A DNA stretch of 44,314 nt, taken from positions 1-44,314 of IMG/VR virus record IMGVR_UViG_3300020122_000140, one strand, 5' to 3'. Origin of the DNA: a virus. The position numbers and the translations under genes were made by a program. Positions 7,256 through 44,314 of this stretch are shown piece by piece; the stretch's first letter is position 1, and each line of letters opens with the position of its first letter. The notes beneath the pieces were generated by a model. The model was not told the origin of the DNA, made no database searches, and saw nothing but the letters and a program-made list of their open reading frames with translations.

Positions 7256-7479
7256 GTGCCGGACCCAAACGCGAACGGCTCACACTTCGACCTAACGGGT
7301 CCACCCTCCGGCCATTCGGCATGGCAGTCGGCGCACCAGGTCCAATAGCCATAGTCACTCATCAGTCGGTCAAAAACATGCTTGTGCGGCCCGACCTTGC
7401 GCGGTCCCACCAACTTCGGCAGGTCATCTGGCGGAAAGAGGTCTCGTGCGCGGATCAGTGGGAGTTCGCTATCGTTCAT
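7252..7479 (-). CDS. hypothetical protein with CxxCH motif (75 aa)
   Basis: 75 residues starting NDSELPLIRARDLFPPDD; the second half contains HKHVFDRL and WTWCADCHAEWPEG with one further Cys at SKC, so a metal site from Cys and His is plausible. ATG 7479 overlaps the upstream stop as ATGA, fixing the start (an in-frame start at 7533 would overlap more). No family recognised. Confidence 0.6.
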   Translation of the reverse strand: MNDSELPLIRARDLFPPDDLPKLVGPRKVGPHKHVFDRLMSDYGYWTWCADCHAEWPEGGPVRSKCEPFAFGSGT

Positions 7480-8087
7480 GCCACCTCCGAGCGGTACGTT
7501 CCCGCCGTCCACTTGATGCCGTTCTCGGGCCACTCCCCGTCACGCTCTATTGGCTCGCACGCGGACCCGACCATCTTTGCCAGATACTCAATCCGTTCTT
7601 GCGTCGCGCTGTAGCGTTCGAAGCTTGGGGGGCGAATCACGGGCACCAAGCGGGTGAGCCCTTCGTCGCAATGGCACCACATGACCGCCACCCCGTTGAG
7701 ATTGGTTCCGTAGCGTATGGCGCTGCGACATTTCTGACAGACCTGCGAGCCTTCGCGTTCGGGCAGCGAGAACTCCGCGCGGCTCTGTACGTCACGCAAG
7801 CTCCGGCCAGAGTGACTCGTTGCATTCGTGCAGTCCTTGCATCGGCTCTGATAGCCTCTCATGCGAGCGGAGACGGAGCGGTAGAATCCCGTCTTGAACG
7901 GCTTCCACACTCGGCACTTCGAGCAGACGCGACCTCGAAGTTTCCCGCTCGCACCGCCGGCCCTCTTGGAGAGCAGATTCTTCTTGGCGCACGGCGTGCA
8001 GGACTGGCGCTGGCGGCCCTTGGAGCCGACGAATTCAGCCCACGGCTTGAGCTGGCGACAGCGCGTGCAAATCTGGGCTGGTCTCAT
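7476..8087 (-). CDS. triple zinc-finger protein (203 aa)
   Basis: Three consecutive Cys-rich units: ICTRC...CTPC (about residues 7-33), VCSKC...CKDC (about 54-86) and VCQKC...WCHC (about 116-139). The first two have the form CxxC-x-x-KP-x-x-F...C-x-x-C, which in other phages forms the zinc-binding N-terminus of HNH or endonuclease VII-like enzymes, but no HNH catalytic His-Asn is present. The C-terminal 60 residues are helical. ATG 8087 overlaps the integrase stop. A nucleic-acid-binding role is inferred. Confidence 0.65.
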   Translation of the reverse strand: MRPAQICTRCRQLKPWAEFVGSKGRQRQSCTPCAKKNLLSKRAGGASGKLRGRVCSKCRVWKPFKTGFYRSVSARMRGYQSRCKDCTNATSHSGRSLRDVQSRAEFSLPEREGSQVCQKCRSAIRYGTNLNGVAVMWCHCDEGLTRLVPVIRPPSFERYSATQERIEYLAKMVGSACEPIERDGEWPENGIKWTAGTYRSEVA

Positions 8088-9244
8088 GGCGTGTCGGTCC
8101 CGTTGTCGGCCCGCTTCGGCGTCTTTTCGCGGGTTTTCCCGGCTTTTTCGTTCGGTTCTCTTTCGGGGTTTTCGCTATAACCCGCACCGTTGCGTAGGGG
8201 GGTGGGTTGAGCCGACGTCAAGCCGTTTTGTGCGTAATTTCCCGTTTGTCCGTCCAATAGTCGGCCCAATTTCGCGGCCGATTCCTCAAGTATCCGCTCC
8301 GACTCAAGCCAGCCGTACTCCTGCGTTACGTCTGCGGCCGCGTGGCCCATCAATGCCCGCTTCCAGCCGATCGGCAGACTCGCCAGGTCGCACCACAGCG
8401 CGAATGTGTCGCGGCCATCTTTGGGCCTAACTCCGAGTCCAGACTTCCGCAGTCGCTTCTCGAATACCTCTTGGCTTAACGGTACGGCTTCAACGTCCGT
8501 GAGCAACGGCACGAAGCGGTCGCGGGCTTCGCGTTTTGTGCCCTTGACGTGCAGTCGCCCATCTTCAATCGCCCACTTGCCAGCGAAGTATTCATCTGGG
8601 AGCATTCCAGAGCAGCAGAGCATCCACCAAGCGCGACCTACGTCTCCACCTAGCGTTTCACGGATCGCTGCCGCCTGTTCTGGCCGTTGGGGATTCTTGG
8701 CGCGCTTCACAGGCTCTGGGAGTCTCGCAATCCCCCGCACGTCAGCATAGAGCTGGTGATCCGTCGTGAGCGTATCCCGCAGAAAGGCTTTGACCACCGA
8801 CATGACGTGATTGAACATCGCACCCTTGTTCTCGGTCTCGCAGGCAGCTCGGTACTTGAGCAGCACGGTGCGGAGCTCGGCCAGTGTTTCGGGCGTTCCG
8901 AGTGCCGTTGAGACGTACTTGGCATAGCGAGCGTACTCTTTGCCCTTCGTCCCGCGCCACGCCTCGAACTGTTCACTGAACGAGAGCGCGTGCTGCGCCG
9001 TGGGAAGCCGTTTCCACTCGCCCGTGCGATAGACCGCCCAGACCTGGCGCAGGGTGAGTCGCCCCGCCTGCACGTCACGCAAGATCTCGTCCTTGCCAGC
9101 CTCGTAGAGGCAACGGCACATCTCCCGCAGCCGGTCGAGCATCTTGGGGTCATGGAATCCCGTGGCGCGCCGAATCCTTCCGACCCCTTTTAGCGATAGT
9201 TTCAGAATCGGTGTCCCGCGATCGTGGCTCTTGAAGGCACTCAC
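8084..9244 (-). CDS. int: tyrosine recombinase-like integrase (non-canonical active site)
   Basis: 386 residues with an N-terminal DNA-binding region and a C-terminal catalytic domain. Visible: a TKRE segment with the beta-hairpin Lys (about 237), KDGR at 275-278, MGH with His 301, and TQEYGW with the nucleophile candidate Tyr 310. The box that normally reads T-G-x-R-x-x-E reads S-G-M-L-P-D-E (212-218), so the first catalytic Arg appears replaced by Leu, and the His of HxxR is Lys. Start GTG 9244 has AGGAGG four bases upstream and a GTGA overlap with the excisionase gene. Expected to integrate or resolve phage DNA; whether it is active is open. Confidence 0.8.
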   Translation of the reverse strand: MSAFKSHDRGTPILKLSLKGVGRIRRATGFHDPKMLDRLREMCRCLYEAGKDEILRDVQAGRLTLRQVWAVYRTGEWKRLPTAQHALSFSEQFEAWRGTKGKEYARYAKYVSTALGTPETLAELRTVLLKYRAACETENKGAMFNHVMSVVKAFLRDTLTTDHQLYADVRGIARLPEPVKRAKNPQRPEQAAAIRETLGGDVGRAWWMLCCSGMLPDEYFAGKWAIEDGRLHVKGTKREARDRFVPLLTDVEAVPLSQEVFEKRLRKSGLGVRPKDGRDTFALWCDLASLPIGWKRALMGHAAADVTQEYGWLESERILEESAAKLGRLLDGQTGNYAQNGLTSAQPTPLRNGAGYSENPEREPNEKAGKTREKTPKRADNGTDTP

Positions 9245-9420
9245 GCCGCCTCCTTGGTTTTTGCCCACCGTTCAAGCGTCTCCCTACGGTAGCGTCTACG
9301 CGGTCGCTTCAACCCGTTACCGACCTCCACATACGGAATGGGCATCTTGTGGAGGGTCTCGACGGTGACGGCCATGGTCTTTGCCGCCTCTGCCGAGGTG
9401 AGTAAAATCGCCTCGTTCAC
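9241..9420 (-). CDS. xis: excisionase-like / MerR-type HTH protein (59 aa)
   Basis: A 59-residue protein with LLTSAEAAKTMAVTVETLHK followed by PIPYVEVGNGLKR and RRRYRRETLERWAK. This is the winged-helix pattern of small excisionase or DNA-binding proteins: helix-turn-helix, basic wing and terminal helix with RW. GTG 9420 overlaps the upstream stop, and its own stop overlaps the integrase start, so the two are co-translated. The pair xis-int is the standard directionality module of temperate phages. Confidence 0.75.
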   Translation of the reverse strand: MNEAILLTSAEAAKTMAVTVETLHKMPIPYVEVGNGLKRPRRRYRRETLERWAKTKEAA

Positions 9421-19096: not shown

Positions 19097-19323
19097 CTTA
19101 GCCTCCAGTAGGTCACCACGCTGCCCGTCTTGCCGGGGCACTTGACCTGTTCCGCTTTCCCCTCGGCCAAGAGTTTCCCCATGCGCTCGAGAATGGTGTA
19201 GCGCGACAACCCCGACTGTTTCACCAACTCCGTAGTAGACAACCAGCCGTCACCGACCGGCTTGGGCTGCGTCGGGCCAGCCGACCGGACGAGCGCGATG
19301 AGCGCGTTCGCTGTTGGCTTCAT
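19093..19323 (-). CDS. winged-helix DNA-binding protein (76 aa)
   Basis: WLSTTELVKQSGLSRYTILERMGKLLAEGKAEQVK has the helix-turn-helix spacing of MarR/GntR-like winged helices, followed by a basic wing and strand TGSVVTYWRLR. An extra 25 residues precede it. It starts at ATG 19323 in an ATGA overlap with the phosphoesterase gene. A transcription regulator for the lysis or accessory block is likely. Confidence 0.65.
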   Translation of the reverse strand: MKPTANALIALVRSAGPTQPKPVGDGWLSTTELVKQSGLSRYTILERMGKLLAEGKAEQVKCPGKTGSVVTYWRLR

Positions 19324-20219
19324 AGGCGCTTACCGTTCGCGTGAATCTGGGCGTCTATTCGACCATCTTCGCGGAGCACCACGCTCGCTAGGCCACGCGA
19401 TCCCGGCGGGTAGCGTTTGGTGGCGGAATAAGTGGAGAAGTACTTGAGGTAGCTGGGAGATATGATGACGAGTCCGTTGCGCTCGTGAAGTCGTCCGGTT
19501 TTCTGATCGGCGTCGGTTTGGTATAGCACATCAATCAGCGCAGAATGCAAGTGCCCGGTCCAGAACAGGTCGAAGGGCCGCGCCCAGGCAATGTCCTTAC
19601 GGGCCGCGTTTCGCTGTCCTCCCGCTGTCGCGGCGGCCCCTGAGCCGTGGTGCGCGAGAATGCGAAACTTGTTTCCCCGCCATGCGATTGTGCAGAAGCA
19701 GTAGTCCGGGTAGTACGGGACTTCCAGCAGCGCGGCCATCCACGACGCGACAGAGAAGCCCATCATGTCGGTGCGGGACTCGTGATTCCCCGGCAGGCTG
19801 AACAGCATCTTGTGCGCGACATCGGCCAGTTTGAGCAGCGCCGCAACGAGCTGGTTCTGGGGCGTCGCGTCCTGCTCGTAGACCCCCGAGCCAACTGAGA
19901 GCTTGGAGGCATTCTCGATTAAGTCCCCGCCATTCCACGTCAGAACGTTGGGGGTCTCCCGAATCCAGCGCAGGTGGCGCTTGAACATCTCCGCGTCGTG
20001 TTGTGCATGGCCCATATGCACGTCGTAGAGGGGAGCGAGTTGGATACTCTCCCACGAGTCGGGGACGGTGACGAGTAGTTCGGGGAATTGGGAGGTGGGG
20101 CGCTGGCGGGAGATGCGACATTGACGACGACGTTTTCTCACCCACGACACGAGCTGGTCCGTGGTGGCTTGAATCTTCGGGTCCGGGTGATTGTCGAGAA
20201 CGGCCGCGAGGTCGCTCAG
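19320..20219 (-). CDS. calcineurin-like metallophosphoesterase (299 aa)
   Basis: Signatures of the phosphoesterase fold in order: LYDVHMGH (DxH), WNGGDLIEN (GD), SLPGNHES (GNHE), LAHHGSGA and FWTGHLHSA (GHxH), the dimetal residues of the family. The frame is open from the stop of the small zinc gene and begins CTG-AGC-GAC at 20219, six bases after AAGGGGG, while GTG 20150 has no ribosome site. The added 23 residues, SDLAAVLDNHPDPKIQATTD and on, read as coding. Substrate unknown; phage members may act on nucleotides or DNA ends. Confidence 0.75.
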   Translation of the reverse strand: MSDLAAVLDNHPDPKIQATTDQLVSWVRKRRRQCRISRQRPTSQFPELLVTVPDSWESIQLAPLYDVHMGHAQHDAEMFKRHLRWIRETPNVLTWNGGDLIENASKLSVGSGVYEQDATPQNQLVAALLKLADVAHKMLFSLPGNHESRTDMMGFSVASWMAALLEVPYYPDYCFCTIAWRGNKFRILAHHGSGAAATAGGQRNAARKDIAWARPFDLFWTGHLHSALIDVLYQTDADQKTGRLHERNGLVIISPSYLKYFSTYSATKRYPPGSRGLASVVLREDGRIDAQIHANGKRL

Positions 20220-20387
20220 TTACGCCCCCTTGAGGTAGGAGAGACTTTCTCTAAGTCCGCATTTCGAGCAGACGGCGACGGGCGACGGCTCGCCTTCGAC
20301 GTAGAGGACGAGCCAGTAGTTGCAGAGCGTGCATCGGCACAGCGATGACGGCTCGGCCCACGCTTTGCCATCCGGCCGGTATTGCAT
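20220..20387 (-). CDS. small zinc-ribbon protein (55 aa)
   Basis: 55 residues with CRCTLC at about 17-22 and VCSKCG at about 39-43, a zinc ribbon, then LRESLSYLKGA. The stop TAA directly precedes the CTG of the phosphoesterase gene. The ribosome site is weak. Function unknown. Confidence 0.55.
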   Translation of the reverse strand: MQYRPDGKAWAEPSSLCRCTLCNYWLVLYVEGEPSPVAVCSKCGLRESLSYLKGA

Positions 20388-20397
20388 CGCGCGCGAC

Positions 20398-21003
20398 TCA
20401 CGGCCTGCCGCACTTCAGTACCGGCACGTCCAACTCAGCATCATAACTGCATACATCGGCCGGATCGTTCGGGCGCGACCCCTGCCGTTGGACATACATC
20501 TTCCCAACTCCACAAATCACGACATTCAGGCGCAGCCCGCTGGCGATGAACGTTCGGATATCCGGGTACGACTCATAGCACGGGTCGCTGGCGGGATCGT
20601 CTTGCGGGTGCATGGATTCGGAGTCGCGCACCTGTAGCCCGCACGCTGCGCCGCCTCCGCCGCGACATGTCTGAGGATGGTTGTGGACGATTCCCACTAA
20701 CGAATCGGTATTCTGTGGGCAGACACCATCCGGCTGGGGAATGACGGTTGTGGGCCGCGAATGGGATGGCTTCACGTCTGCCATGATCGCGTAGAGAACG
20801 ATCGTGGTATCGCTGTTCACGCGCCCGTAGAGGCATTCCAGGTACTCGGTATGAAACTCACGGTACATGAGCGCGGATTCGTGGAGAAATAGATTGGCAA
20901 TGAGCGTATGTGCGGTATCTTGGCGCACCATAGCCATCTGCCCGAACGCCCCGCCCGCGCTCACGGCCCACCAGAGCAGCCACGCCAGCACGGTCCGCGT
21001 CAT
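20398..21003 (-). CDS. exported JAMM/MPN-like metalloprotease homologue (201 aa)
   Basis: Residues 1-21 (TRTVLAWLLWWAVSAGGAFG) form a signal peptide or anchor. The mature part has the JAMM order: a Glu (53 or 56, HTEYLECLYG), LVGIVHNHP (His 107, His 109), then SYPD (Ser 145, Asp 148) followed by a hydrophobic strand with VVICG. In typical JAMM the HxH and SxxD motifs are about 8 residues apart; here about 35 residues rich in Cys, Gly and acidic residues intervene. Six or more Cys suggest disulfides. GAGGA six bases before ATG 21003. Either a secreted protease or isopeptidase, or a degraded relative. Confidence 0.6.
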   Translation of the reverse strand: MTRTVLAWLLWWAVSAGGAFGQMAMVRQDTAHTLIANLFLHESALMYREFHTEYLECLYGRVNSDTTIVLYAIMADVKPSHSRPTTVIPQPDGVCPQNTDSLVGIVHNHPQTCRGGGGAACGLQVRDSESMHPQDDPASDPCYESYPDIRTFIASGLRLNVVICGVGKMYVQRQGSRPNDPADVCSYDAELDVPVLKCGRP

Positions 21004-21182
21004 GTCGCGTCCTCGTCTGGCGGCAAACCATCTCTCTGGATCAAATACGCCTCGGGATTCGTCAGCCACCAGTTGCGACAGAAATCGCAGCCGCAATAAT
21101 CGGGGTGCTCCCGTTCGACGCTGTGGGTATCACCGCGCCACGGCTCCAACTCCGAGTCGTCCTGCTCGTCCGGGTATCTCAC
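21000..21182 (-). CDS. small Cys-rich protein (60 aa)
   Basis: 60 acidic residues with YCGCDFCRNWW in the centre (C-x-C-x-x-C), short His/Asp context and NPEAYLIQRDGLPPDED at the end. GTG 21182 overlaps the upstream stop, and its stop overlaps the exported JAMM gene start. Not recognised; a metal site is possible. Confidence 0.6.
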   Translation of the reverse strand: MRYPDEQDDSELEPWRGDTHSVEREHPDYCGCDFCRNWWLTNPEAYLIQRDGLPPDEDAT

Positions 21183-21391: not shown

Positions 21392-21537
21392 GGCCCGTTT
21401 TTCACGCACTGGTCTTTGATGCCAGCCGAGTCCGCGACGAAGTGGTAGCCAGCCGGGCAGAGGTGGGTCTGGCCGGGGGCGAAGCCAAATGGCGCTTGGC
21501 ACGCCGCCAAAAGGCCGAGTAGGGCGAGCTTTACCAC
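21388..21537 (-). CDS. small lipoprotein (49 aa)
   Basis: VKLALLGLLAACQAPFGF is a short signal peptide ending in a lipobox (L-A-A-C) with Cys 13 as the lipid site. The remaining 37 residues include GQTHLCPAGYHFVAD. AAGGA six bases before GTG 21537. Outer-membrane spanins are often small lipoproteins, so this may be the partner of the neighbour at 21179. Confidence 0.6.
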   Translation of the reverse strand: MVKLALLGLLAACQAPFGFAPGQTHLCPAGYHFVADSAGIKDQCVKNGP

Positions 21538-21971
21538 GCCACGTCCTTGAGACTGTCCAGCGTGTATTCCATCTGGTACGAACAACGTCCGGACTGATAG
21601 ACGTTGCTGCACGTCAGGAGCTCGAAGACCGGCCGCGCGTGGAGCGTGAACGTCGCGGTCCATCCGAGCTGCGGCGGCAGTCCGGGAGCACCGTTCGCCG
21701 TGAAATACATGAAGTAGTTGTTGTGTCCCGTTGAGTCGGTGAGTCGCGCCTCCCACGCTCTGAGGTCGAGCGTGGCGCACTCTTTGGCCTCAGGGGTTAG
21801 GTGAATGTCCCCGCATTGGGGCTCGTACTCCCACCGCTCTTGAATCTTCGTGATCGTCCCATGCACGACGCGGATCGGCGCCATGTGCGGGAGGACGCAG
21901 CCCGCGAGTGCGAGGAGGGCGAGCACCAAGAGGGGGAACACGATCAGGCCCAACAGGATGTGACGGGTCAT
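21531..21971 (-). CDS. lipoprotein (146 aa)
   Basis: The signal-type N-terminus TRHILLGLIVFPLLVLALLALAGC ends in a lipobox (L-A-G-C) with Cys 25. The mature part is beta-rich with TKIQERWEYE, GHNNYFMYFTANG, GWTATFTLH and several more Cys. ATG 21971 overlaps the coiled-coil gene upstream. A spanin partner or a host-surface-modifying lipoprotein is possible. Confidence 0.65.
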   Translation of the reverse strand: MTRHILLGLIVFPLLVLALLALAGCVLPHMAPIRVVHGTITKIQERWEYEPQCGDIHLTPEAKECATLDLRAWEARLTDSTGHNNYFMYFTANGAPGLPPQLGWTATFTLHARPVFELLTCSNVYQSGRCSYQMEYTLDSLKDVAW

Positions 21972-22534
21972 ACGCGGCACGTTACCCCGGCCCCGAGCGC
22001 GTAGCCGTGAAACCCGACCGTTGCGGAGGGACCGATAATGCAGCGGGGATTCCCGCGCTTGAGGGCCTCGCGCAGTTGAAGCGCGGTCCCCTCTTGCAGC
22101 GTGCGCCATGACCACGCGGCCGAGTCGGCGACTTGCCAGTGTCGCGTCGCGAGGCCCAGGGCTGCGGTGAGGGACGCAATCTGTGCTGATTGCAGGGTTG
22201 TGACGGAATCCTTCAATGCGATGATGCTGTCGAAATCCGCACGCCGAACGCCCCCGAGTACCGCACGAAGGTCGGCCGCGAGCGAGTCCGCGCGGCGTGA
22301 CAATCTGTCGGCACTTGCCGCCAACTGCCGACGTTCCGCGTCGAGTGTGGCGATGCTGTCGCGGGCCGTGGAGTCGTCCCGCGCGCGGGCTACTTCCGCC
22401 GCGACGAGGTGTTGCCGCACAGCCGCTAATGAGTCGGCCCGTTCCTGGGCGAACGGGTCGGAGGTGCAGCGAAACAGCGCCCACCCACCGATGAGTCCGA
22501 GCAGCGCCGCGACGCCAAGCGGCCAGAGCTTCAC
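21968..22534 (-). CDS. membrane-anchored coiled-coil protein, i-spanin-like (188 aa)
   Basis: N-terminal hydrophobic helix (LWPLGVAALLGLIGGWALF) followed by a very long Ala/Asp/Arg-rich coiled coil (about residues 30-140) and a globular end with Cys. Such a layout is typical of phage inner-membrane spanins, which fuse inner and outer membranes. It starts at GTG 22534 in a GTGA overlap with the membrane gene upstream. Partner could be the lipoprotein at 21531. Confidence 0.6.
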   Translation of the reverse strand: MKLWPLGVAALLGLIGGWALFRCTSDPFAQERADSLAAVRQHLVAAEVARARDDSTARDSIATLDAERRQLAASADRLSRRADSLAADLRAVLGGVRRADFDSIIALKDSVTTLQSAQIASLTAALGLATRHWQVADSAAWSWRTLQEGTALQLREALKRGNPRCIIGPSATVGFHGYALGAGVTCRV

Positions 22535-22821
22535 CAGAGGGCTACCACGACGAGTGCGGTGAGGACTTCGACGGCCACGTCATAGACGAGCCACCGCACC
22601 GGATACGTCCCGTCCGGCTTGGGCTCCCAGAGCGTGAGCTGCCATGCCAACGCCGCGCCGAGCGTAAAGAGCACGGGCTTGAGTCCGCCGTCCGGCCACC
22701 ACAGGAGGAGCGCCCAGAACGTCCAGGCGATTCCCCCAAAGGCATGAGCCACGGGTTGCTGGAAGTACCAGCGGGATTGACCCGACCACCATGCGCGGTC
22801 TTGCCACGGCCACCACTTCAC
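22531..22821 (-). CDS. multi-pass membrane protein (96 aa)
   Basis: Three or so hydrophobic stretches (FGGIAWTFWALLLWW, LFTLGAALAWQLTLW, VAVEVLTALVVVALW) and many Trp suggest an inner-membrane protein. It lies in the lysis cassette between the wall hydrolase and the spanins, as holins often do, but no holin family is recognised. Starts with GTG immediately after an upstream stop. Confidence 0.5.
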   Translation of the reverse strand: MKWWPWQDRAWWSGQSRWYFQQPVAHAFGGIAWTFWALLLWWPDGGLKPVLFTLGAALAWQLTLWEPKPDGTYPVRWLVYDVAVEVLTALVVVALW

Positions 22822-22977
22822 CTATGACTCGAACCGTCCGTAGACGTAGGCACCAGCAGCGAGACCGAGCGCGATACCAAACACCCACCACGAGAGCCCT
22901 GCGGCGCTCAAGAACTTCGCGCCCAGCACAGCACCAGCGACGATGAGTCCGATGCGTTCCACCGATTTCGCGATCAT
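22822..22977 (-). CDS. small membrane protein, holin-like (51 aa)
   Basis: 51 residues with two hydrophobic stretches (IGLIVAGAVLGAKFLSAAG, WWVFGIALGLAAGAYVYG) separated by a short polar turn and ending in a charged tail (RFES). ATG overlaps the stop of the endolysin gene. Two short membrane helices suit a class II holin or a membrane accessory. Confidence 0.55.
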   Translation of the reverse strand: MIAKSVERIGLIVAGAVLGAKFLSAAGLSWWVFGIALGLAAGAYVYGRFES

Positions 22978-23438
22978 TCAGTCTCCTTGTAGAACCTGAA
23001 GTAGTCCCGTGAGAGTCCGGGTATCAGCACTTCCGTGCGACCGCTGACCCACGTGGGTTCGCGATACGGCGGCACCATGCTGACCGGGGAGTAGTACCAG
23101 CACATCCGTGCGTCGAAGTGCGGCCACGTCGGCTCACGCCAAGCTGCAAGCGCACCGGCGACGTGCGCGGGAAACCAGACGCCAGCCATCGCGTTCCGCC
23201 AATAGTCCTGCTGACAGACCGCGGAGAATTGGCCGCGCTGCAACACCACTTCGACGGGAGTCTTTGGAAACAACGGACTCGCGACGCGATTTCGTATTAC
23301 ATCACACACCGCGCGAAGCGCCGCGGGAATCATGTCGATGGTGAAATCGCCCACCGGGATCGGCGGAACCTCTGTGCTGATAACCGCCGCGACCACGTAG
23401 TCGCGTCCCGTCACGCAATCAGTGGCGAGGTCGGTCAT
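22974..23438 (-). CDS. SleB-like cell-wall hydrolase (endolysin) (154 aa)
   Basis: The pattern ALRAVCDVIRNRVASPLFPKTPVEVVLQRGQFSAVCQQDYW matches SleB/Hydrolase_2, in which an N-x-x-V-NR segment and a G-Q-F-S motif mark the glucosaminidase/transglycosylase-type core. ATG 23438 with GGAG five bases upstream starts the protein; longer frames are not needed. No signal peptide, so release through a holin is expected. Position in the lysis cassette supports it. Confidence 0.7.
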   Translation of the reverse strand: MTDLATDCVTGRDYVVAAVISTEVPPIPVGDFTIDMIPAALRAVCDVIRNRVASPLFPKTPVEVVLQRGQFSAVCQQDYWRNAMAGVWFPAHVAGALAAWREPTWPHFDARMCWYYSPVSMVPPYREPTWVSGRTEVLIPGLSRDYFRFYKETE

Positions 23439-23629
23439 GCGGTCTCCACCTTTGCTAGGGCCCAACCGGCGAGACGGCTACCCGCTGCGGCGAGAACACC
23501 AACAGCCAGTGATTGCCACTTCGGGATAGAACCACCAGCGAGCGCGCCGGAGAGGTACGCAAGGCCGCCCGACAGCGCAGCAACAGCCGCCGAGTGAAGC
23601 ACCTTTTTCGTCGTAGGGCTGAGAGTCAA
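23435..23629 (-). CDS. holin-like membrane protein (64 aa)
   Basis: 64 residues with two hydrophobic helices (LHSAAVAALSGGLAYLSGALAG, LAVGVLAAAGSRLAGWAL) joined by a basic turn and ending with a short charged tail. Starts at TTG 23629 with GGGGG seven bases upstream. Small two-helix protein beside an endolysin: a class II holin candidate. The transcript's upstream side holds promoter- and terminator-like signals. Confidence 0.55.
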   Translation of the reverse strand: MTLSPTTKKVLHSAAVAALSGGLAYLSGALAGGSIPKWQSLAVGVLAAAGSRLAGWALAKVETA

Positions 23630-41808: not shown

Positions 41809-42978
41809 TTAACTTGTGCTATCCGTGACGAGGCCGTAGTTCGCGAGGGCGGTCATCAGGCTCGTCAGAGCGGCATTGGCACCCTTCGAGCCGGTGACGC
41901 TCGGCTTCGTAATCGGTGTCGCCCCATTGAAGCCGTGGAACGCGCCGGTGCCTGTCTTGAAGATTTGGTTCCCGCTCCCGTCCGCGCTCCCGAACTGCCA
42001 CGCAAAGTGACTCGCATCGCTCACGTCGCCAGGACTACCCGTGCTCATCATCCCGATGATGGCCGTAAGATTCGCATTGCTGCCGAGTTTGATGACATGG
42101 GCAGCCGTGGAGCTGGTGCCCAGAAACAGCGTGCGCGACGGGTGGAAGCCCGTGATGGGGTTGTTGACGAGCACGCAGTAATTCGTCCCTGCGTGATCCT
42201 CGAATGAGCAACTGATGAATCGATTGTTCACCCCGTCTTGCACTGTGACATGCGAGCCATCCGCCGTGACGCTGAAGTTCCACTTACAGTCCACGAAGTC
42301 GCACTCGTTCCCGTTAATCAGCACCGCGACCGAGCCACTGGCGAAGTTGAAGTTGTTGGCGTGACAGGTAAACCCGTTTCCGTTGACGACGTTGATACCC
42401 GTCGAGATGGCATCCCCCACCCAAGTGCAGTGCGTCAGGAACCCATAGGCGGTATCGTTGGCCATGTCGAGATTGAGACAGATACTACTCCCCGTGCTCC
42501 CGCTCGTGATGTGAAAGTTGCAATGGTCGAACGTCCAGTGATTGGTATCCTTGATGCTCGCGAGCGTGACGCCTGTCTTGTCGTTGGAGTTAAAGTGGAC
42601 GCCGCGAATCCTCGGCCCTTGGTGCACGAGCGACGTGTTTACGTTGTTGAGCAGCGTCATGCTGTTCGCGCCGCACAGGAGCTGCACGCCGTACCCGCTC
42701 GTGCCTACCGACTCGTTGAAGGAATCGACGAAGGACCCCTGGAGGACGAGCGCGGTCAGGTTGTGAATGTCGAGGCCAGGACTCCCGATGACATATCGGC
42801 CGGGCGGGAAATACACTGTGCCACCAACGAGGGCACCGGATTGCGGGACGGCATTGATTGCGGTCTGAATCGCCAGCCGATCATCCGTGACGCCATCCCC
42901 GACCGCCCCGTAAGCCTTGATATCAAACACACCCTCGTTGTTCGTGAAGGGATTCGTGAGCCACTGGAGGTAGCTCAT
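41809..42978 (-). CDS. second beta-helix tailspike-type protein (389 aa)
   Basis: 389 residues. GVFDIKAYGAVGDGVTDDRLAIQTAIN at the N-terminus is the canonical pectate-lyase-like entry with D-G-x-x-D-D motif. It continues with short repetitive strands (FDHCNFHITSG, LTHCTWVGD, FISCSFEDH) and ends AALTSLMTALANYGLVTDST, a trimerisation-type tail seen on phage spikes. It begins one base after the terL stop and differs from the 571-residue spike at 342..2057. Receptor or glycan cleavage role inferred. Confidence 0.75.
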   Translation of the reverse strand: MSYLQWLTNPFTNNEGVFDIKAYGAVGDGVTDDRLAIQTAINAVPQSGALVGGTVYFPPGRYVIGSPGLDIHNLTALVLQGSFVDSFNESVGTSGYGVQLLCGANSMTLLNNVNTSLVHQGPRIRGVHFNSNDKTGVTLASIKDTNHWTFDHCNFHITSGSTGSSICLNLDMANDTAYGFLTHCTWVGDAISTGINVVNGNGFTCHANNFNFASGSVAVLINGNECDFVDCKWNFSVTADGSHVTVQDGVNNRFISCSFEDHAGTNYCVLVNNPITGFHPSRTLFLGTSSTAAHVIKLGSNANLTAIIGMMSTGSPGDVSDASHFAWQFGSADGSGNQIFKTGTGAFHGFNGATPITKPSVTGSKGANAALTSLMTALANYGLVTDSTS

Positions 42979-42979
42979 G

Positions 42980-44314
42980 TCAGGCTATCTCCATCATCTT
43001 CAGGGGTCGGCCGATGGGGCGGTTCCATGACGTGCTCTGAAACCGGCCGTGCGTGAGGCGCATGGCATCAGAGGCCAGAGTCAGGATGAACGCGTCCGCC
43101 AGGTCGGGAGAGTCCACGCCGTACAGCTTCTTCATGTCCTTCTTCGAGAGAACGTAGATTTTCCCCGACTGCGGCGAGTAGTCGTACTTCTGGACCGTCA
43201 GTTGCTTCAAGAGGTCGTCTTCCGACTCCGCGTTCTTGTAGGCCGTGGGCAGTTTGTAGTCTCTCCGGGCAAACCACTCTTTCGCCTTGAACCAAAGTTC
43301 GGAGCGGAGATCCCGGTAGCGGTCCTGAAACGAGAGGGCCGGCGACTCGGAGACGTTGATCCCGCGCGCGGGCATCCCGAGTTGACGTAACCGATCTACA
43401 ACCCCCGCCCCAATACCGATCACGTCGATATTGACTTCGGCCGGCCGGAGGTGGATCGGTTCGGAGTTGTATTCCTCGTAGAGAATCCCCGCGAACGTCA
43501 TGGTGTCGAGCTTCCGCCACCACCTGACCTTTTCCAAGAGTTCTGTCCCACGCCGCTTGGCGAGCGCGCAACGGTCATCTCCGAACCGGGCCACGTCCAC
43601 GCCCCAGACGACAGGCGTGTGGACGGACGACTGCACGTCGCGGTTCATGGCGGCCTCCACGAGCTCGAACGGAATCACGGCGTCCGATTCCGTCGTGGGG
43701 AATTCTCCCAAGACGCGGACGCGATACTGGTTCGAGTTCTTGCCGTAGGTCCTGCGGACGAGCTCTTCGAACGCGGTGACGGCGACAGCCTGCGGGACAT
43801 CAAAGCACGACACCGTTTTCGTCCACCAGAGGTCTTGGTTCTTGGTGAACGTGTCGTGAAAGAAGCCTGTCGTCCGAACGGGGTTTCCGGTCAGGATCGT
43901 CATGGCGTTGTGACCGGACATGGACCCGATCGCCGCCTCGAACACGGGATCTGGAATACCGGACGCCTCGTCTCCAATCAGCAGGACCGATTCATTCCCG
44001 GTATAGAGGCTCTGGTCGGCGTGAATCCCCTGAAGGGCGTCGGGGACTTCTGCCCGTGAGGTTCTGGCCGACACGAACGAGTTGTCGGGGGCCGCTTTCA
44101 GGAACACCTTTTCGCTCTGGGGCTCGAGCTGGTCCTGCCAGGTCTGGGGGAGCCGCTGGAGGAGTGACTTGAACGTGGCCCAGAGGGCATCCCAGAGGTT
44201 GGTACTCGAGGGAGCCGTCACCACCGTCTTTTGCGGATACCGCAACAGGAGGTGGTGGACCATGAGACAGGCCAAGGCCGTGGACTTTCCGACACCGTGG
44301 CCCGACTTCACCGC
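42980..44314 (-). CDS. terL: terminase large subunit TerL, main part (starts at 271 across the junction)
   Basis: Continues the frame from 1..271. The GHGVGKS Walker A is at the very start of this part. SVLLIGDEASGIPD is the Walker B with catalytic Glu, and the GNPV segment following could be the coupling motif. The nuclease half has VWGVDVARFGDD (metal Asp), VNIDVIGIG and DLADAFILTLA (a second and third acidic residue), the RNase H-like set. The complete 492-residue protein is assembled by joining 271..1 with 44187..42980. Confidence 0.9.
   Translation of the reverse strand, partial: AVKSGHGVGKSTALACLMVHHLLLRYPQKTVVTAPSSTNLWDALWATFKSLLQRLPQTWQDQLEPQSEKVFLKAAPDNSFVSARTSRAEVPDALQGIHADQSLYTGNESVLLIGDEASGIPDPVFEAAIGSMSGHNAMTILTGNPVRTTGFFHDTFTKNQDLWWTKTVSCFDVPQAVAVTAFEELVRRTYGKNSNQYRVRVLGEFPTTESDAVIPFELVEAAMNRDVQSSVHTPVVWGVDVARFGDDRCALAKRRGTELLEKVRWWRKLDTMTFAGILYEEYNSEPIHLRPAEVNIDVIGIGAGVVDRLRQLGMPARGINVSESPALSFQDRYRDLRSELWFKAKEWFARRDYKLPTAYKNAESEDDLLKQLTVQKYDYSPQSGKIYVLSKKDMKKLYGVDSPDLADAFILTLASDAMRLTHGRFQSTSWNRPIGRPLKMMEIA
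44188..44314. repeat. terminal redundancy, right copy
   Basis: Identical to 1..127. Together they show that the contig closes into a circle inside terL. It should be counted once, giving 44187 unique bases. Confidence 0.95.

Follow-up and report, generated by a model that had tools for sequence, protein, structure and literature searches.

The minus-strand gene P0001 of a soil bacterial virus (IMG/VR virus record IMGVR_UViG_3300020122_000140; the window analysed is the whole stretch of 44,314 nucleotides) encodes a 201-residue protein that, judged from its sequence, is an orphan of a known enzyme kind, namely JAMM-like, with unusual features. That it is exported from the cytoplasm and that it has a JAMM fold are both highly likely, and catalytic activity is likely, whereas the complete reading favoured here, a JAMM/MPN+ metallopeptidase that is exported, is stabilised by disulfides and acts in the envelope, most probably at about the time of lysis, is put forward tentatively.

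The gene, its phage and its neighbours

P0001 is a real coding gene and is translationally coupled. The open reading frame at 20398-21003 starts with ATG and is intact, and its GC content by codon position (0.62/0.47/0.72) is that of the sure genes of the phage; the five other frames of the same interval are without such a pattern, and stops are found in all of them. The ATG, with GAGGA 7 bases 5' of it, overlaps the stop of the upstream ORF (ATGA, 4 bp), the next ORF starts 10 bases past the end of the gene, and P0001 sits within a run of genes. On the basis of an exact terminal direct repeat of 127 bp (1-127 = 44188-44314), the genome is taken as complete, at ~44.2 kb. Thus, two starting points of an earlier, sequence-only reading of this DNA, that an ORF is present here and that it is encoded by a phage, are both borne out. 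The ends of the contig meet, and the terminase gene spans them. Terminase and portal group the phage with Sinorhizobium phage phiM5 and the LUZ24-like podoviruses; its nearest complete relative (43,954 bp, terminase 57%) matches in head and tail genes, and no JAMM-like ORF was found there. Features of the genome distant from P0001 are the following.

342-2156 and 41809-42978, minus strand: two pectate-lyase-like proteins, likely tail spikes (PF12708)
7476-8087, minus strand: HNH/endonuclease VII-like protein, matching HNH families
8084-9268, minus strand: integrase of the tyrosine type, diverged and not picked up by Pfam (phrog_1, E=2.7e-9)
9241-9420, minus strand: excisionase-like ORF

Given the integrase and the excisionase-like ORF, the phage is probably temperate. 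Both pectate-lyase-like proteins flank the terminase, outside the usual tail cluster. Within 181532-202320 of CP070811.1, a 5.35-Mb single-contig Anaerolineales chromosome, lies a relative of the major capsid protein (56% over 267 residues), and this locus is possibly a prophage of the same phage group in Chloroflexota. A Gemmatimonadota host, suspected from similarity of protein style, is not claimed; a Gemmatirosa plasmid gave no match.

P0001 and its neighbours, with the lysis genes upstream, are the following.

22974..23465, minus strand: endolysin, a cell wall hydrolase of the Hydrolase_2/SleB type (Pfam PF07486, E=4.2e-10)
22531..22977, minus strand: two small membrane proteins of 51 and 96 residues, holin candidates from sequence
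21968..22534, minus strand: membrane-anchored coiled-coil protein, inner-spanin candidate from sequence
21531..21971, minus strand: lipoprotein (LALAGC lipobox), outer-spanin or surface candidate from sequence
21000..21182, minus strand: 60-residue upstream ORF (YCGCDFC), the one sharing the 4-bp ATGA overlap with P0001
20398-21003, minus strand: P0001, predicted exported JAMM-like protein
20220..20387, minus strand: 55-residue downstream ORF with two CxxC pairs, zinc-ribbon-like
19320-20150, minus strand: metallophosphoesterase ('DNA repair exonuclease'; phrog_7339, E=7.5e-30)

A further small membrane protein is also encoded upstream of P0001 on the same strand. The two tiny Cys-pair ORFs that bracket the gene are possible zinc-binding partners. 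The metallophosphoesterase lies 250 bases downstream and has relatives in three phage records only (Bacillus, Moorella and an archaeal host).

The N-terminus of P0001 reads MTR-TVLAWLLWWAVSAGGAFG/Q and, as judged by eye and by hydropathy, is of the signal type, with an uncleaved anchor possible. Export is predicted because of this N-terminal sequence and of the eight Cys residues of the protein; the earlier claim of an exported form is therefore favoured by a hydrophobic segment ending AFG/Q and by the Cys content, on a sequence basis. The same two features, taken with the lysis-gene context, favour action in the envelope. As to the periplasmic or outer-surface role that had been suggested, during lysogeny or lysis, the gene adjoins the lysis genes and lies outside the tail cluster, and the phage has an integrase, so that either occasion may apply.

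In the proposed scheme P0001 would be made late, together with the lysis genes, would leave the cytoplasm by the Sec route, and would most likely cut a peptide or isopeptide bond of the host envelope, helping lysis, candidate bonds being a peptidoglycan cross-link or a protein-to-wall link. (Iso)peptidase chemistry in the envelope would fit: in a meso-DAP cross-link a side-chain amine carries the amide, and this bond closely resembles the lysine isopeptide that JAMM deconjugases cleave. Zinc binding, substrate and timing are what we infer here, and a role in lysis is a guess with something less than an even chance of being right. The main functional rival, which is rather unlikely, places the protein in lysogeny, as an exported JAMM peptidase that trims a surface protein, e.g. 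a phage receptor, and so blocks other phages. With an integrase and an excisionase-like gene, a lysogen expressing P0001 may exist, and its neighbours are small exported proteins, a lipoprotein among them, as is common for exclusion genes; however, it is on the same strand as the late lysis genes, with tight spacing, and a simple scan found no minus-strand promoter-like site near it, which weighs weakly against a role in exclusion.

Evidence for a JAMM domain

Whether it acts in lysis or in exclusion, P0001 is read as a JAMM protein because it is collinear with AfJAMM (AF2198, PDB 1OI0/1R5X; sequence confirmed against PDB 1OI0) across the whole domain. After the signal-type N-terminus come a helix and then E53-YLECLYG; a long loop separates this from GIVHNHP (104-110), and between GIVHNHP and C142-YESYPD lies a stretch rich in Gly and Cys. 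C142-YESYPD is in turn followed by a hydrophobic strand whose last residue is Cys164. The elements on which the sequence-only reading had relied (signal-type N-terminus, Glu53, HNHP at 107-110 and SYPD at 145-148, in JAMM order) are all present.

20941..21003, minus strand: residues 1-21 (MTRTVLAWLLWWAVSAGGAFG/Q), predicted to be a signal peptide of the Sec type or a signal anchor, from sequence, hydropathy and a model helix at 2-16
20824..20847, minus strand: EYLECLYG, residues 53-60, with Glu53 the predicted acid-base Glu (AfJAMM EFIALLSG, Glu22)
20674..20685, minus strand: HNHP, residues 107-110, with His107 and His109 predicted zinc ligands
20581..20673, minus strand: Gly/Cys-rich catalytic-loop stretch, residues 111-141
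20560..20580, minus strand: CYESYPD, residues 142-148, with Cys142 corresponding to AfJAMM Cys74
within 20560..20580, minus strand: Ser145, predicted oxyanion Ser, and Asp148, predicted zinc ligand
20512..20514, minus strand: Cys164, located past alpha-2 on the next strand and predicted to pair with Cys142 in a disulfide (AfJAMM Cys95)

In such an active site zinc would be held by His107, His109 and Asp148, Glu53 would activate water and Ser145 would stabilise the intermediate. Block by block, EYLECLYG stands against AfJAMM EFIALLSG, GIVHNHP against GTVHSHP, and CYESYPDIRTFIASG against CRPSEEDLSLFTRFG, each of the latter pair being followed by a strand ending in Cys (VVIC and IIVC, respectively), so that the extended blocks read CYESYPDIRTFIASGLRLNVVIC and CRPSEEDLSLFTRFG-KYHIIVC; further towards the C-terminus, KMYVQRQG faces KCYNRKG. 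The two proteins also agree in a loop Cys at S-3, a Phe at D+4 and a Gly at D+8, and the hydrophobic strand before HxH is common to P0001, AfJAMM and the MPN+ group of Rpn11 and CSN5. The loop Cys (S-3) of AfJAMM is bonded to a Cys on beta-5 (C74-C95; PMC300881), and a Cys pair of this type is present in P0001, with Cys142 at S-3 and Cys164 on the following strand, although one residue out of register (D+16 as against D+15). The predicted loop-to-strand disulfide would suit an oxidising compartment.

With respect to the published motif EXnHS/THX7SXXD (PMC300881), P0001 has E53, H107, H109, S145 and D148 in order, with HNH in place of H(S/T)H, as in RadC and the phage K-type proteins, and with X35 between His109 and Ser145 instead of X7 (PMC300881), in agreement with the spacing of about 35 residues between HxH and SxxD noted earlier. 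The HP-to-S spacing is 34 residues, against exactly 6 in 40/40 other JAMM frames (the distinct ones among the fetched loci), and HP-to-Cys is 31, against 3 in Rpn11 and AfJAMM. The resulting 28-residue Gly/Cys-rich insertion, from HP to Cys142, may form a flap over the active site, which would probably set substrate choice.

Statistical support for JAMM identity from the sequence is moderate (z ~4). The three-block JAMM score of P0001 is 4.1 sd above shuffles (z=4.1) and ranks just under the true JAMMs among 5,938 frames, nearly all of it coming from the VGIVHNHP block and little from a poor SxxD block; the split-alignment score with AfJAMM, a partner picked after looking, is 3.7 sd above shuffles (p ~0.003). 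The loose motif E..hydrophobic-HxHP..SxxD gives ~4 chance matches, to non-JAMM frames, in 7,161 frames, and when C-x-x-S-x-x-D is added, a scan of 9,268 frames returns only P0001, a phage JAMM present in three copies and a single unrelated protein.

Profile searches of Pfam and NCBIfam gave no match up to E=1, Prok-JAB (PF14464) and RadC included, nor did the PHROG and PADLOC profiles. Since no family profile matches, P0001 is not filed in any named family and is classed as JAMM-like only. By tblastn or peptide-pattern scans, only chance matches were obtained in viral contigs, genome contigs, 50,697 phages and 72,556 plasmids, in ~100 related phage or host records, and in 1,285 genomes (95 + 400 + 392 + 398) of four phyla, those of Methylomirabilota, Anaerolineales/Chloroflexota, Phycisphaerae and Kiloniellaceae MAGs. 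Of the degenerate DNA patterns, GIVHNHP returned phage K-type JAMMs, CLYG..HxHP no relatives among the matches listed, and HNHP..CxxSxxD..F none. That these searches found no homologue counts against the JAMM reading. Two further comparisons were set aside: hhalign with the K family aligned the HNHP stretch only and was circular, the set having been chosen by that motif, and the 'putative peptidase' beside the terminase of phiM5, considered as a counterpart, lacks HxHP and does not belong to the JAMM proteins.

AF2 without an alignment gave P0001 a pLDDT of 34, and a mean of 57 with a hand-guided alignment of 21 rows (A4: P0001 and 20 half-domain rows, taken from RadC and from K-type JAMMs of phages, adopted as a guide after several MAFFT row sets had misplaced E53 or SYPD). 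The aided model runs alpha1-beta-beta-beta-[loop]-alpha2-beta-beta, the JAMM order of elements, at low confidence; pLDDT is ~80 at residues 31-60 and 101-110 and <50 in the SxxD region, and residues 113-144 form an unmodelled loop. Because the rows were chosen and cut to align the motifs, the model speaks for compatibility and is not independent proof. No Foldseek match reached E<=0.001: APOBEC deaminases led the PDB matches (E 0.23), and in the viral library the best match was an unnamed one (E 0.026), with a phage JAB protein fifth (E=0.22). The AfJAMM fold has itself been likened to cytidine deaminase (PMC300881).

The JAMM identity proposed earlier is thus moderately supported by the collinear AfJAMM match and by the element order of the aided model, and goes without a curated family, a relative or a significant Foldseek hit. 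Chance resemblance is the main structural rival: P0001 would be an unrelated exported Cys-rich phage protein in which HNHP and SYPD fell into JAMM order by accident. We regard this as unlikely. It draws on the missing family and homologue, on a combined shuffle p of ~0.001-0.003 only, with AfJAMM chosen after looking, and on the unrelated protein (L419) that also fits the extended motif; yet it would have to account for Glu, HxHP, CxxSxxD, Phe at D+4, Gly at D+8 and the beta-5 Cys, all in AfJAMM order, as well as for the JAMM order of the aided model. Alternatively, the fold may be JAMM while the insertion blocks the metal site, leaving a binding domain such as a periplasmic inhibitor or adaptor. 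Inactive MPN- domains are common in eukaryotes, and 28 residues inserted within the catalytic loop, so near the metal, could mean lost activity, as could fit the poorly scoring SxxD block; however, none of the five catalytic residues (E, H, H, S, D) has been lost, nor has the loop Cys, and such retention would be improbable in the absence of selection. A non-catalytic protein is given a low probability. It is very improbable that P0001 is an HNH-nuclease remnant: VHNHPxxCRGGGG recalls VDHIHPxSxGG, a motif of HNH endonucleases, around HNHP and the GGGG run, but the downstream Asn and His/Cys of that motif are missing in the next 45 residues, the N-terminus is signal-type, and P0001 matches no HNH profile, although the protein at 7476-8087 does match HNH families.

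Comparison with known JAMM systems

JAMM enzymes are familiar either as deconjugases of the cytoplasm or as components of phage tails, and no description of exported or phage-borne free JAMM proteins was found in the literature, within partial coverage. Among phage proteins, the tail-tip protein K (JAB and NlpC/P60) is one of the nearest parallels to P0001. The GIVHNHP of P0001 is identical in an apparently K-type phage family, in which the SxxDI..C.A.G.. after HNHP is also similar. This family (loci L087-L137; EACG...GIVHNHPDADNTPSEGD...YYIFSYP) recurs in many viral contigs, with HP-to-S fixed at 6 residues. The K-type frames compared here start without a signal peptide and have those 6 residues where P0001 has a signal-type N-terminus and 34. 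K proteins sit within tail gene clusters (PMC1779556); unlike them, P0001 is a separate ORF after the lysis genes of a podovirus-like phage, and no NlpC/P60 domain was found adjoining it.

The RadC JAMM domain (PDB 2QLC) shares with P0001 the E-x3-CL-[FY] at the Glu strand and HNHP, and differs in having no Cys at S-3 and PSxxD six residues past HP; the two align at 16-22% identity, and RadC is not known to be exported. Two bacterial deconjugases of the ubiquitin type, BilC (PDB 8TYX) and the CBASS protein Cap3, would have JAMM isopeptidase chemistry in common with P0001, if the latter is active. Both are cytoplasmic proteins with a coupling to E1/E2-like genes; no gene of that type was found in this phage.

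If an exported viral JAMM protein does lie beside lysis genes, isopeptidase chemistry would be placed in the envelope, with a route to learning what phage and RadC-type JAMM domains cut, targets already called unknown in the 2003 structure paper (PMC300881); the long catalytic-loop insertion would also probe the tolerance of the JAMM site. As an orphan with a predicted activity, P0001 is a lead. It is a doubtful, speculative step further to see in it a class of secreted JAMM isopeptidases, made by viruses and stabilised by disulfides, that would act in the envelope of bacteria on peptidoglycan cross-links or on isopeptide bonds between proteins and the wall, and would carry at the active site a flap that none of the JAMM enzymes compared here has.

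Overall, the sequence places P0001 nearest to the AfJAMM/Rpn11 group, to which it is probably related and with which it would probably function similarly: Rpn11, too, has GxxHxHP and C-x-x-S-x-x-D. From AfJAMM, Rpn11 and CSN5 it is set apart by the signal-type N-terminus, HNH, the 34-residue HP-to-S spacing, eight Cys residues and its being encoded by a virus.
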